From: Acidobacteriota bacterium
GTDB taxonomy: Bacteria > Acidobacteriota > Terriglobia > Bryobacterales > Bryobacteraceae
DNA: 39,866 nucleotides
Assembly: GCA_947470805.1 (NCBI GenBank)
Contig: CANIVU010000085.1
Location: 1 to 39,866, forward strand
Direction: 5' to 3'
In this document: one piece after another, positions 1,424 to 37,251 of the stretch
Numbering within the stretch: the first letter of the stretch is position 1
How the letters are laid out: the number at the start of each line of letters is the position of its first letter
The notes under the pieces: generated by a model
What the model was told of the DNA's origin: nothing
What the model saw: the letters and a program-made list of their open reading frames with translations, nothing else
Database searches by the model: none
Made by a program: the position numbers and the translations under genes

Positions 1424-2047
1424 TCACTCCGGTTTACGGAGTAGGAGGTTGGGTTGGCGCTTGGTGGCGGCCCAGAGAGCGAGGGCGATGGCTATCGCCA
1501 TGTCGTCGTGCTTGGTTTGGCCGCCGGCGGAGTCGATGTGCATCAGCTCCTCCTTTAACTCGTCGCGGAGCGGGAGGTCGGAGGGGAAGATCAGCTTCCG
1601 GGTTTCCAGAGCCAGGCGGAGCAGGGTGACCAGCTCGCGACGAGGCACCGAGTAGAGACCGCCGCCGAGACGGCTGCCCATGCCGGCGCCGGTGATGATG
1701 GCCGGCAGGATCGAGCACGGCATCTTTTCTTTGCGGATCATGTCGATGACGGGCAGGCCGGGGCCGCCGCCGTCGATGGCGAGTGTCGTGTTGATCTGGC
1801 GGCCGAAGTGGCCCGGGGGCGGGGTGACAATCGCCGTCCGGACCAGTTTTGGAATCTCAGTATAAGCGGTGCCGAGAGGGAAGCGGTGGAGACCGCGGAG
1901 CCGGAAGTTCTTGGTCTTGATGAACTCCCAGGAGACCGGGTCACGCTGGTTGGAGGTTACCTCGACGAGGTCGAGGAGGGCGATGGCGGAATGGTCATTC
2001 CGCTGGCCGAGATCCAAACCGGAGAAGTTGTATTCGATGCGTTCCAT
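1424..2047 (-). CDS. Stand-alone terminase-type nuclease domain (RNase H fold, TerL C-terminal half)
   Basis: This 207-residue protein corresponds to the C-terminal nuclease half of a phage large terminase (Terminase_6C/GpA-like RNase H fold). The expected acidic residues are present: Asp12 in SGLDLGQRNDHSAIAL, Asp92 in LAIDGGGPG and the pair Asp181/Asp182 in KHDDMAIAIALA. It starts right at the nuclease core, so it has no ATPase part of its own. The ATG at 2047 follows AGGGA by about 11 nt and comes 13 nt after the stop of the ATPase gene, in a different frame. In phages the two domains are normally one polypeptide; here the break falls at the domain boundary and both halves keep their motifs, which suggests two cooperating proteins rather than a dead gene. 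No portal, capsid or tail genes are nearby. The cellular role is unknown. Confidence 0.8.
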   Translation of the reverse strand: MERIEYNFSGLDLGQRNDHSAIALLDLVEVTSNQRDPVSWEFIKTKNFRLRGLHRFPLGTAYTEIPKLVRTAIVTPPPGHFGRQINTTLAIDGGGPGLPVIDMIRKEKMPCSILPAIITGAGMGSRLGGGLYSVPRRELVTLLRLALETRKLIFPSDLPLRDELKEELMHIDSAGGQTKHDDMAIAIALALWAATKRQPNLLLRKPE

Positions 2048-2060
2048 AGATGGTTGATCC

Positions 2061-3623
2061 CTATTGCTTGGGTAGAGTGACGGCCGGGACGTCGCCGCGG
2101 AAGGCGTCGTCGACGACGCTTTCCGGGACGCCGACGGTGGCGATGGCGGTGAAGTCGCACATGTACTCGCGGTTGAAGACCGCTTCGCCTTTGGCGGCGC
2201 GTTCGGCGGCGAGGAATTCGGGCGAGATGCGGGGGCACTCGGGGGCGGTGACCTTGAATCGGCGCCAGTCGGGGCCGTTGCCGCGCCAGATTTTGTAGAA
2301 CTCGCCGGTGGTGTCGTTGGCGCTGGAGAGGAGCCAGAGCTGGCCGTTGGTGGTGGCGAGCATGGGCGAGAGCGCGTTGTGCATTTCGGTTTCGACGAAG
2401 GCGGCTTCGTCGATGATGATGACGTCGACGGCGGCGAAGCAGCGGACGGTGTCGGGGGACTGGGGGATCGCGAGGACGCGGCTTTCGTTGGGCAGAACGA
2501 TGGCGCCGCGGTTGATACCGTCGCCTTTGCAGCGGGCGCCGAGGAGCTTTTCGGCGTGACGGCGGATGACGCGGAGGAGTTCGGCGGCCTGTTTGTAAGA
2601 GGCCGAGGCGATCAAAATGAATGCGCCGGGTTTGGCGGCGGCGAGGTGGAGGGCCTTGACGGCGGCCACGCTCGATTTGCCCCACTGGCGGGTGCAGCAG
2701 AGGATGAGCCGCGGGGTGTGGGTATTGAGAATTTCGGTCTGGATGGGGTCGGCCTGGAAGCCGAGGGCCTGGGCGGCCCAGGTGGCAACGGGCATGCCGT
2801 CGGGGGGCGCCTGTTTGAGGGCGCGGGCGGGGGTGGGATTGGGCGGAGTGGTGGTGGGGGCGGTGGGGGCGACCTCGTCGGCGACGAGCCGGAAGGGGGG
2901 TGCGGACGGAGCCTGGGTGTTGGAGATGGCGCCGGGGGACGGGGCGGCGAGCGGGTTGGGGCTGTCCAGACAGACTTTGGGCGCGGACGGAGTGCGGTCC
3001 GTGGTGGTGGGCCGCGGGTCGTGAGGGAGCTCGGTGTCGGGGATCATGGCGGGGCTCGAGTTGCGGAACGCGGGCCCGGATGCAGCCGGGGCGCTGGGAA
3101 TGGCGCAATTGCCCTCGGCGGTGAACGGGCCGGGGTTGTTGCGGCGGACTTTGGGTGCGGACTGGTTGCGATCCGCGATGGTGGTGGGCGGATCGAGGAA
3201 CGCGGGCCCGGCGATGTTGCTGGCGGCGGGCTGAGGTCGCGATGCGCCGGTGGCGGCGCGCGGGCCGAGGCTGTTGTGACGGACTTTGGGTGCGGGCAGA
3301 GTGCCGTCCGCGCTGGTGGGTCTCGGGGCGGGGAACGCGGGCCCCGCGATGGTGCTGGCCGCAGGCTGGGATGGCGTCGCGCCGGTGGCGTCGAGCGGTC
3401 CGGGGCTGCTTTGGCGGACTTTGGGTGCGGACGGAGTGCGGTCCTTGGTGGTGGTCCGCTGGTCGCGGAACGCCGGGCCGGTCTTGGTTCTGGCAGCAGG
3501 CTGGGATGGCGTCGCGACGGTGGGCCGGTCGGACGGCGGCGGCACTGCGGCCACCGCCGTGGCGGGTCTGTTGTGTTTGCCGGGCGACTGGGTGCGCAGG
3601 CCGGCGTTGGAATTGGCTTCCAT
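2061..3623 (-). CDS. Stand-alone terminase-type ATPase with repetitive Pro/Ala-rich N-terminus (TerL N-terminal half)
   Basis: The 520-residue protein has two parts. Residues 1 to about 270 are Pro/Ala/Thr-rich, apparently disordered, and carry four degenerate repeats around an (S/P)APKVR core (near 66, 111, 156 and 214). Residues about 275-500 are a terminase-type P-loop ATPase: Walker A RQWGKS (312-317, the Arg-first form typical of terminases), Walker B IIIDEAAF (402-409) and the coupling motif LLSSAND (431-437). The protein stops at VTLPKQ, just where the nuclease domain of a complete large terminase would begin; that domain is encoded by the next gene. The ATG at 3623 follows GAGGA by about 9 nt. 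It probably belongs to one transcript with the NGAKSRGP gene upstream (gap 83 nt) and the nuclease downstream (gap 13 nt). It could be a domesticated DNA-translocating motor; the substrate is unknown. Confidence 0.82.
   Translation of the reverse strand: MEANSNAGLRTQSPGKHNRPATAVAAVPPPSDRPTVATPSQPAARTKTGPAFRDQRTTTKDRTPSAPKVRQSSPGPLDATGATPSQPAASTIAGPAFPAPRPTSADGTLPAPKVRHNSLGPRAATGASRPQPAASNIAGPAFLDPPTTIADRNQSAPKVRRNNPGPFTAEGNCAIPSAPAASGPAFRNSSPAMIPDTELPHDPRPTTTDRTPSAPKVCLDSPNPLAAPSPGAISNTQAPSAPPFRLVADEVAPTAPTTTPPNPTPARALKQAPPDGMPVATWAAQALGFQADPIQTEILNTHTPRLILCCTRQWGKSSVAAVKALHLAAAKPGAFILIASASYKQAAELLRVIRRHAEKLLGARCKGDGINRGAIVLPNESRVLAIPQSPDTVRCFAAVDVIIIDEAAFVETEMHNALSPMLATTNGQLWLLSSANDTTGEFYKIWRGNGPDWRRFKVTAPECPRISPEFLAAERAAKGEAVFNREYMCDFTAIATVGVPESVVDDAFRGDVPAVTLPKQ
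2970..3490 (-). repeat. In-gene tandem repeat (135-bp units) encoding the disordered N-terminus of the terminase-like ATPase
   Basis: The motif GACTTTGGG(T/C)GCGG recurs at 2973, 3147, 3282 and 3417 on the plus strand. The spacings are 174, 135 and 135 bp, all multiples of three. Each unit encodes about 45 residues (58 in the longest) built around APKVR, then SPGP and an AxxxxGPAF segment. In-frame spacing and conserved core residues show the repeat is maintained as protein. Unit number could vary between strains through slippage. Confidence 0.75.
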
Positions 3624-3706
3624 GTTGCGTGTCCTCGTTGGGTTATCCCTTTGGGTTACTGTTGGTTTTTGCCTCTGTTTGTTGGGGTTATGGTGGGTTT
3701 TTGCAC

Positions 3707-4249
3707 CTAACTCCCAGAGCTTAAGTCGTTTGTTTCCAATGACTCTTGGGTTATTTCCACCGTATGGACCATTTGGAGCCTGCGGAGTTCGCCGGCGATG
3801 CGGCTGCGATCGGCGATCAGGGCGCTGACGCGGCGTTGGATCAGCGTCTGCGGACCTTGCGGTTTGCTGCCGTCCAGCTCGGCGTGGCTGACGGCATTGA
3901 CACTGCGGATGGGTTGTGTCGCCCCCTGGCGCATTTCTTCGATGGCTTTGTTGCCCTGGACGGTGGCGCTGAGACGGAGACGGTTAATGCGCCAGGAACA
4001 GTCGACGATCTCTTCGACCAGCTGGGCCTCGAACACCGTTCGCGGACGGTATTGCGCGAAAGCGGCGTCGCGCAGGTGATTGAATGCTTCGGCGGATTCA
4101 ATCGACAGTACAGACGCACTGGTCCTGTAGAGTCCATGAGTGGTGTTGGCATCGGCGATGCGCATGCGGCCGTCTTCGGTCTTCGGGCCGCGGGATTTGG
4201 CCCCGTTGCGGCGGGCCTGTTCGGAACGTGTTAACTTTTCGGTACTCAT
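3707..4249 (-). CDS. Unnamed 'NGAKSRGP' family protein, first gene of the terminase-like unit
   Basis: This 180-residue protein is not a family I can name. Its N-terminus carries ARRNGAKSRGPKTEDGRMR followed by N-x3-HGLYR, a basic Gly-rich signature also seen in the protein at 36477-36950 (SRRNGAKSKGPVTPQGKLR). A second shared block is YRPRTVFEAQLVEEI followed by WRINRLRL, and the C-terminal third is a charged, probably helical or coiled-coil region (IQRRVSALIADRSRIAGELR). It has no signal peptide or membrane segment, so it is cytoplasmic. The basic N-terminus would suit DNA or RNA contact. Its position directly before a terminase-type ATPase and nuclease is where a phage small terminase subunit would sit, but I see no HTH, so that role is only inferred. 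The ATG at 4249 lies about 13 nt after AGGAG, rather far. Confidence 0.7.
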   Translation of the reverse strand: MSTEKLTRSEQARRNGAKSRGPKTEDGRMRIADANTTHGLYRTSASVLSIESAEAFNHLRDAAFAQYRPRTVFEAQLVEEIVDCSWRINRLRLSATVQGNKAIEEMRQGATQPIRSVNAVSHAELDGSKPQGPQTLIQRRVSALIADRSRIAGELRRLQMVHTVEITQESLETNDLSSGS

Positions 4250-4530
4250 TTGCGGAAAAATGCTCCTATCCCAGTCCTACCAGCGCGCAAAGCGAAACCG
4301 CGTCCAAGACAAATTTGGAAATGGGTATAAGTTGTTGCAGCGGATGGAGTTGTTGATTTGAAAATAAATCGACTTCCCTTGTGACTGACTTTTCCACAGG
4401 GGGTGTTTTTGTCGTTTTTCGGGGTCTCCCCCCCCTTGACCGGGGGGTATTGGATTCAATAGGATTGACCAACTAAGCCACGGTAGTCGCCAGATGGAGG
4501 AATCTTCACTGGCAGGCAAAAGGAGGGTCT
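4250..4530. other. Divergent intergenic region, AT-rich on the terminase side
   Basis: This spacer of 281 bp separates the minus-strand terminase-like unit from receptor 1. The part from about 4310 to 4410 is clearly AT-richer than its surroundings (for instance GATTTGAAAATAAATCGACT) and probably holds the promoter of the minus-strand unit, although I cannot fix its boxes. A run of C then G around TTGACC (about 4428-4447) could form a short hairpin. No short gene is evident. Confidence 0.5.
4436..4465 (+). promoter_or_regulatory. Candidate sigma-70 promoter for Oar-like receptor 1
   Basis: TTGACC at 4436-4441 and TAGGAT at 4460-4465 are separated by 18 bp and lie about 65 bp before the ATG at 4531. 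The gene also has a strong ribosome site, AAAAGGAGGG at 4518-4527. The spacer contains a run of six G, which is atypical, so this remains a candidate only. Confidence 0.33.
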
Positions 4531-36476: not shown

Positions 36477-36950
36477 TCACGCGGCGCGTTGGCGGAGCTT
36501 CTTGTCGTTGAGCAGCATGTTCAGCAGGTGCGATTCGCGGCGGCTGAGCGTGTCGATGCGTTTGTAGAGCGACATGTCGATGACGCTTTCGCTGGCGTGA
36601 TCCTTGTCGATGCAGATTCGTTTGTATTCCAGTTCGGAGAGCTGGAAGCGGCGCAGGCAGAGCGGTTCGAGGTGCCAGCGGATGTGGGCCATTTCGCGGA
36701 CGAGGAAGGCTTCGTGCTCGTTTTCCGGGCGGAAGCAGTCGAGCATGCCGTCCAGGATCTGGTAGTAGCGCCGACGGGCGTGGCGGTCGGCGATGGCTTC
36801 GGCCGGGGGCACGAAGAATTTGAGGGTGGTAGCGTTGCGGCCGGTGACGAGGGCGTTCCGGCGGGAGCGCAATTTGCCTTGGGGCGTGACAGGCCCTTTC
36901 GATTTGGCGCCGTTGCGGCGTGAGATTTCGGCTCGTTGTTCACGGGTCAT
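36477..36950 (-). CDS. Second 'NGAKSxGP' family protein, stand-alone
   Basis: This 157-residue protein is related to the first gene of the terminase-like unit (3707-4249) but has no terminase genes next to it. The N-terminus is SRRNGAKSKGPVTPQGKLRS followed by RRNALVTGRNA; the central part FRPENEHEAFLVREMAHIRWH matches the YRP...E..LV.E....WR block of the other copy. The C-terminal third is charged and helical (YKRIDTLSRRESHLLNML). It has no signal peptide or membrane segment. The ATG at 36950 follows AAAGGA by about 9 nt. A strong hairpin lies 30 nt upstream in its leader. I cannot name the family or its function. Confidence 0.72.
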   Translation of the reverse strand: MTREQRAEISRRNGAKSKGPVTPQGKLRSRRNALVTGRNATTLKFFVPPAEAIADRHARRRYYQILDGMLDCFRPENEHEAFLVREMAHIRWHLEPLCLRRFQLSELEYKRICIDKDHASESVIDMSLYKRIDTLSRRESHLLNMLLNDKKLRQRAA

Positions 36951-36979
36951 GGGGCGATTCCTTTCGCTGGGAAATAGAA

Positions 36980-37022
36980 AAGGCCCTCCGGGGTGCGAGA
37001 GTGTCGCACGGCGGAAGGCCTT
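36980..37022 (-). promoter_or_regulatory. Strong leader hairpin upstream of the NGAKSKGP gene
   Basis: AAGGCC (36980-36985) pairs with GGCCTT (37017-37022), and the inner arms TCCG/CGGA and TGCGA/TCGCA close around the loop GAGTG. Read on the minus strand the stem is followed by TTTTCTATTTC, so it has the shape of an intrinsic terminator placed 30 nt before the start codon. It could end an upstream transcript, act as an attenuator for this gene, or be a relic of an element end. Confidence 0.6.
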
Positions 37023-37251
37023 CTACTTCTATTCTACCGGGCGCGCACCAAATGTTTTGGGGTGGCTGGTTTTCAAGTTATTGATTACAGGGGAGAAACT
37101 TTTTTTCGTTGGGCTGTGATGAGCATTCGCGGGTATCCGGAATTTTGTTGAAAGTACTCGATTCCCCGGGTTTTTGCCGGCGGTGAAACGCCGCCGTATT
37201 CAAGACGCATCCAAGGCACGGACAGCTCCAGGCGGAGCGTTTGCGGACGGA

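Follow-up and report, generated by a model that had tools for sequence, protein, structure and literature searches.

Terminases serve as hallmark genes of tailed phages, and a terminase motor that sits on a bacterial chromosome with no virion genes seen alongside raises the question of what it is doing there. The case examined here lies on contig CANIVU010000085.1 of the Acidobacteriota assembly GCA_947470805.1 (family Bryobacteraceae), whose 39,866 analysed nucleotides we call the window. An initial annotation had pointed to three minus-strand genes at 1424..4249, and open reading frames (ORFs) bear these out: N (3707..4249), which encodes the helical "NGAKSRGP protein" of 180 aa, A (2061..3623), whose 520-aa product is classed as a TerL-type ATPase, and R (1424..2047), whose 207-aa product is classed as a TerL-type nuclease of the RNase H fold, each gene having its own ATG. 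The trio is not a chance arrangement, since it recurs in other genomes, and N-A-R is a multi-copy chromosomal family of environmental Acidobacteria rather than a singleton. The reading that we favour, with a probability of about 45%, is that it is a selfish element built on a terminase, which spreads through cutting and recombination and is targeted by N, the mechanism being one that we infer.

Identity of the ATPase and the nuclease

By motif and profile, A is a TerL-type ATPase. It matches Terminase_6N in Pfam (PF03237, E = 9.7e-6, 25.8 bits, cut-off 22) and the TerL family phrog_7579 in PHROGs (E = 5.7e-35), and a profile built from nine A paralogs finds T4 gp17 (3ezk, E = 1.5e-19). The terminase Walker A (RQWGKS) and Walker B (IIIDEAAF) motifs reported earlier for this gene are both found, and the core residues R77, G80, K81, D170 and E171 (312, 315, 316, 405 and 406 in the protein) are unchanged in 9/9 aligned paralogs. 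The ATPase core makes up the last ~285 residues (about 236-520), following ~235 N-terminal residues that are Pro/Ala-rich and repetitive, in the coding sequence of which a repeat search found a 135-bp repeat in three copies (3117-3523).

R alone had no match in a Pfam scan, but its profile, its modelled fold and the conservation of its acidic residues identify it as a nuclease of TerL type with an RNase H fold. A Foldseek search with its model (pLDDT 86.5) returned, as the top nine PDB matches, TerL nuclease domains or terminase complexes (G20c, SPP1, herpesviruses), eight of them with E < 0.001 and with RuvC ranking next, and the R profile finds G20c TerL (5m1q) with an E-value of 2.3e-8. The nuclease acidic residues D12, D92, D181 and D182, which the initial annotation had already listed, are intact: D92, D181 and D182 are unchanged in 30/30 homologs and D12 in at least 90%. 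Selection on all three genes is mostly purifying: 39 comparisons, made within and between genomes and not all independent, gave dN/dS values of 0.02-0.47 (<= 0.16 in 34 of the 39).

A multi-copy family and its viral relatives

The host genome (8.7 Mb in 220 contigs) contains 23-24 matches to A, 44-54 to N and, in a single-sequence search, eight to R. All 19 genus genomes searched contain A matches, at 4-24 places with E <= 1e-3 (fragments and common phage TerL may account for part of these), and all 19 contain N matches, at 2-58 places with E <= 1e-8. In 16 of the 19, N gives more matches than A, most extremely in genome G012 (58 vs 9). Further afield the family is sparse: in a phylum sample of 396 genomes, with few candidates scored per genome, an A match at E <= 1e-40 was obtained in six, the host among them, and at this threshold A is absent from the two other family genomes in the sample and from nearly all of the phylum. 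Relatives belong to Bryobacterales, 'Ca. Sulfopaludibacter' and further Acidobacteriota metagenome-assembled genomes. The initial annotation had suggested checking whether the trio recurs in Acidobacteriota outside prophages; it does, with no phage genes where flanks were examined. We came across no description of the family in the full-text literature, in which subscription journals are thinly covered, nor in passages of two acidobacterial genome papers, PMC5900883 and PMC3174227, the latter of which never uses the word "terminase".

One alternative is that the genes are what remains of a prophage, a satellite or a gene transfer agent, as one might expect from A and R being true terminase domains. 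The nearest relative of A in IMG/VR is a 4-kb contig (38% identity) encoding a full-length TerL followed by a portal-like gene, and TerLs of Thermus and Meiothermus phages (34-37%) are among its nearest viral relatives. A search of 50,697 phage records gave four matches to A, at 30-37% identity, and the two inspected are full-length TerLs alongside head and portal-type genes. The same records contain no match to R or to an N relative, and among 238 IMG/VR candidates R has a single weak relative. A tree from which 13 distant rows and all but three of the 36 IMG/VR rows had been dropped placed 47 module ATPases on one side of a branch with support 82/73 and is not decisive; in a larger tree, thinned from 178 rows to 103, the broad clade that holds the module ATPases also includes phage TerLs.

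Pfam and PHROG scans of the window genes identified TonB-type outer-membrane proteins, sulfatases and an NHL protein, the PHROG matches among the other ORFs being a glycosyltransferase, two sulfatases and one family of unknown function. The 16 other window ORFs scanned wholly or partly (Pfam on 10 and PHROGs on 10, seven of them shared, and three more in pooled scans; a second N gene is among them) included no phage structural gene. The flanks of 19 loci in the host's own genome are likewise ordinary (sulfatases, ribosome recycling factor, SRP54, UvrD), and no structural phage family is among the first 25 of the 51 PHROG families listed for 93 flanking ORFs, a scan that covered own-genome loci and not flanks in other genomes. 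The earlier statement that no virion genes lie nearby thus stands for the window ORFs scanned and extends to what was listed around these 19 loci. With no virion genes where they were searched for and no phage relatives of R and N, a prophage or gene transfer agent origin is disfavoured, and we consider the remnant explanation very improbable. In this lineage, chromosomal matches of TerL type, of which one genome may have as many as two dozen, are apparently not prophage markers, and terminase-based virus detection can therefore mislead.

Arrangements of N, A and R

We sorted 104 A loci by gene arrangement, omitting 13 duplicate loci and L123, with L001-L023 and L132-L150 lying outside the scan. 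R follows A or is fused to it in 54/98 loci (six others are cut by contig ends), and in 21/104 loci a single TerL-like chain, typically of ~505 aa, comprises both A and R; the four such chains tested with Pfam (L089, L081, L084, L302) all match Terminase_6N. The single chain with ATPase and nuclease that is usual for TerL is thus present in these relatives and not at the window locus, where the motor is divided between two genes as previously described. This split is one variant among several, the arrangements encountered being N alone, N next to A, N fused to A, all three genes separate, an N-A fusion followed by R, and N followed by an A-R chain. The N-A and A-R fusions in relatives link the three parts to one another. 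These natural split and fused TerL pairs, together with the N-A fusions, offer material for studying communication between motor and nuclease. In genome G404, which has related ATPases, A is followed by two R-like genes (L305 4221-5712 and L306 4229-5601). In the first of the two genes, two of the acidic positions are altered (D to E and D to N), so that it resembles the inactive partner of an active nuclease.

N is putatively a DNA-binding or motor-loading partner. Of the 78 A loci with enough sequence to check, 71 have N either joined to A in one protein or no more than 400 bp upstream of it (26 further loci are cut by contig ends). The initial annotation had proposed that N takes the place of a small terminase (TerS), and as far as steady partnership goes, both this count and the N-A fusions agree. 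By homology, N is no more than a candidate TerS: the N model (pLDDT 81.5, with long helices at 72-109 and 133-161) has no significant match among the viral models of BFVD, and the TerS profile phrog_9231 was touched by two of 30 N homologs (best E 0.005).

Dispersal and the edges of copies

Seven solo N copies (L045-L051) are 84-92% identical over ~800 bp, beyond which they are unrelated save for repeats common to some of them. More generally, at 20 edges of N, N-A, A and R copies in three genomes, placed by us at alignment ends, identity is 0.72-0.98 in the inner 120 bp and 0.45-0.61 outside, compared with a median of 0.50, a 95% point of 0.57 and a maximum of 0.65 in 300 random pairs; two of the outside values exceed the 95% point. 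The pairs behind six of the 20 edges have dS values of 0.13-0.53 (0.13-0.2 for the closest copies). Neutral flanks at such distances should still align, and therefore the units were moved or replaced without their flanks. Many dispersed copies with sharp edges, a hallmark of transposons, are therefore a feature of this family. Genome G003 provides further examples: 8 of its 18 A matches are cut by contig ends, as expected of near-identical repeats, similarity within three groups of copies ends at or near the A stop codon, and a TonB gene there adjoins an A copy that its window counterpart does not have. One N copy (L045) lies in a 4.15-kb insert that G003 does not have, the flanks there being ~39 bp apart. 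On these comparisons, it is the N-A-R unit itself that has dispersed, without its flanks.

Six pairs of loci from G013 and G015 were compared over longer stretches, and in the four with upstream sequence in both genomes (just 1.3 kb in one) several kb are kept downstream (~1 kb in one) and nothing directly upstream of N or A; in one pair, upstream similarity resumes 11-15 kb further away. When 51 usable pairs, from which known same-locus pairs had been removed beforehand by list, were tested for a breakpoint at the 5' end of N, a flank was kept in 12: downstream only in seven (six distinct), upstream only in two, and on both sides in three (two distinct). One upstream-only pair lies within a genome and the other is half of the L103 join discussed below. 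A breakpoint at this position is suggested by these few pairs, and recombination between repeated N genes accounts for it.

One may also consider that N, A and R are passengers, carried along by an unrelated transposon or through recombination of adjoining repeats that resemble repetitive extragenic palindromic (REP) sequences. Such REP-like repeats, and other dispersed ones, do occur beside many copies, and locus L103 of G014, which combines the upstream flank of one host unit with the downstream flank of another (L025, L039), is apparently a crossover between dispersed copies or else an assembly join. Yet the repeats do not occupy fixed positions at the two edges, and the edges track the ends of the genes themselves, so that we regard this explanation as improbable.

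On the downstream side, the window has a tandem repeat just beyond R (1006-1366; 130-bp unit, 2.8 copies) with inverted stretches GGGGACAG...CTGTCCCC, and the REP-like sequences beside many copies resemble it. A recurrent sequence, GCGATCTTG..CCATCGTCGCC..CTCTTTGACA..AATA, lies downstream of several N, A or R genes (L028, L031, L053, L059, L062).

Upstream box and leader hairpin

The left edge of the window unit is marked by a box, CCCTGTGGAAAAGTCAGTCACAAG (4378..4401, minus strand), of which the genome has 24 copies with up to three mismatches, compared with none for the reversed control. Its 14-bp core AAAAGTCAGTCACA, with up to two mismatches, precedes the N match by 133-196 bp in 28 of the 42 N genes of the host genome (0/42 for the reversed core). 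N proteins behind a common box can be less than 35% identical, and the same box on N genes of such distant sequence argues further against the passenger explanation. The exact box is present in three of 19 genomes, at 27, 5 and 12 sites. N genes of G005 instead have CGTTCACAA in common (6/8, vs 3-4 in shuffles), and upstream words exceed shuffles in G000, G005 and a pool that combines several genomes; G003, with four genes, is too small for this test. The AAAASTCAGTCACA box also precedes genes other than N, encoding a TPR protein, a TIR protein (in the host) and unknowns (L064 4953, L065 4276, L066 4958, L067 5048, L069 4650, L070 4150, L259 and L268). The upstream box may act in regulation, in recognition, or in both roles.

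Many N genes also have a strong hairpin, often followed by T, just before their start: z is below -2 in 30 of 57 non-redundant N leaders, vs 9 of 60 other genes. An Rfam search across nine loci gave no match. The window offers an example away from the trio, in the second, stand-alone N gene (36477..36950, minus strand; N profile match E = 5.5e-41), whose leader (within 36951-37040) is predicted to fold into a strong hairpin resembling a terminator, at -38.5 kcal/mol (z -4.94).

How the unit might spread

In the selfish-element reading, N would bind within its own leader or close to it (at a TCAGTCACA-type box and/or the hairpin) and load A, which would translocate DNA, and R would cut it; the break would then be healed from or into another copy. 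In this way N-A(-R) units could spread and be homogenised by homing-like recombination or transposition, and stand-alone N copies would be non-autonomous relatives to which A and R are supplied in trans. Somewhat less probable, and put forward here tentatively, is the proposal that an ex-viral packaging motor drives its own chromosomal spread as a mobile element, with N recognising a lineage-specific box of its leader, A and R cutting and moving DNA, and N-only and N-A units as non-autonomous satellites of N-A-R. If the unit does move by its own motor and nuclease, this would add a new mode of DNA spread. The annotation had suggested a domesticated or mobile module, which holds in outline, the evidence favouring a dispersed multi-copy family rather than a single domesticated module.

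A number of observations weigh against self-driven spread. R is absent downstream of A in 44/98 checkable loci. Neither the first N of the window nor the 207-aa solo N copies have a strong leader hairpin, upstream words show no excess over shuffles in G015 and none that is clear in G013, and no sequence at the right edge is common across unit types. The search for ends, which covered seven aligned solo-N copies, the listed downstream ends and the one insert with a G003 counterpart, revealed no terminal inverted repeats or target duplications at these few sites. The 4.15-kb insert is composite and carries other genes, and is thus not a clean insertion of the unit; as candidates for a clean empty site we rejected it, together with L245 (rearranged) and L048 (not simple). 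The 27 exact boxes of the host precede N in 17 cases and other genes in eight (two are undecidable), on which account we do not accept the box as a plain transposon end. For six box sites without N, G017 has the orthologous site as well, which fits a promoter or operator too. The G013/G015 copies are old and retain their downstream neighbours, and in the G005 pair L282/L283 similarity is confined to A, which fits gene conversion.

Several of these points, namely the orthologous G013/G015 loci with conserved downstream genes, the regulon-like sharing of a box by unrelated genes (TPR; TIR in the host) at conserved positions, and the homology block limited to A in G005, speak for another explanation, a host-domesticated terminase family with a cellular role, in which copies arose by duplication and were kept alike by gene conversion, and dispersal was old and passive. 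The mostly purifying selection and the presence of matches in every genus genome searched point the same way. As cellular roles we considered processing of DNA breaks, DNA uptake, regulated genome cutting and defence; genome defence, which had been among the early suggestions, has nothing in its favour, five proteins having matched none of the PADLOC models of known anti-phage systems. On the other side, 2-58 N matches with sharp edges and differing positions are more than a host function needs, and A gives no E <= 1e-40 match in the two other family genomes sampled or in nearly all of the phylum. A host role is thus in our view rather unlikely.

Comparison with known systems

The closest comparison is with phage TerL (T4 gp17, G20c, SPP1 G2P), with which N-A-R shares the ATPase motifs, an RNase H-fold nuclease with conserved acidic residues, the order of ATPase before nuclease and a small partner gene upstream. 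In contrast to phage TerL, N-A-R is multi-copy and chromosomal, with no portal, capsid or tail gene seen alongside, A is often split from the nuclease or lacks it, and N has no significant match to known TerS.

Transposons of the Tn7, Mu and IS21 type combine an ATPase, an RNase H-fold transposase and a DNA-binding partner. N-A-R also has an ATPase, an RNase H-fold nuclease and a partner, which would likewise bind DNA, but its domains are TerL-type, and inverted ends or target duplications were not seen at the few sites examined. In RAYT/REPIN systems many short dispersed hairpin units have coding relatives. The N-A-R family, too, has many short dispersed units with hairpins; unlike in those systems, no HUH transposase was recognised and the hairpin sits in the N leader.

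Lastly, homing endonuclease genes and their islands in phages are described in PMC10448857 as stand-alone nucleases at the borders of exchanged DNA. N-A-R resembles them in this respect, and selfish spread through cutting and recombination would be common to both, whereas the nuclease of N-A-R is TerL-type and comes with a translocase-type ATPase and a partner protein.

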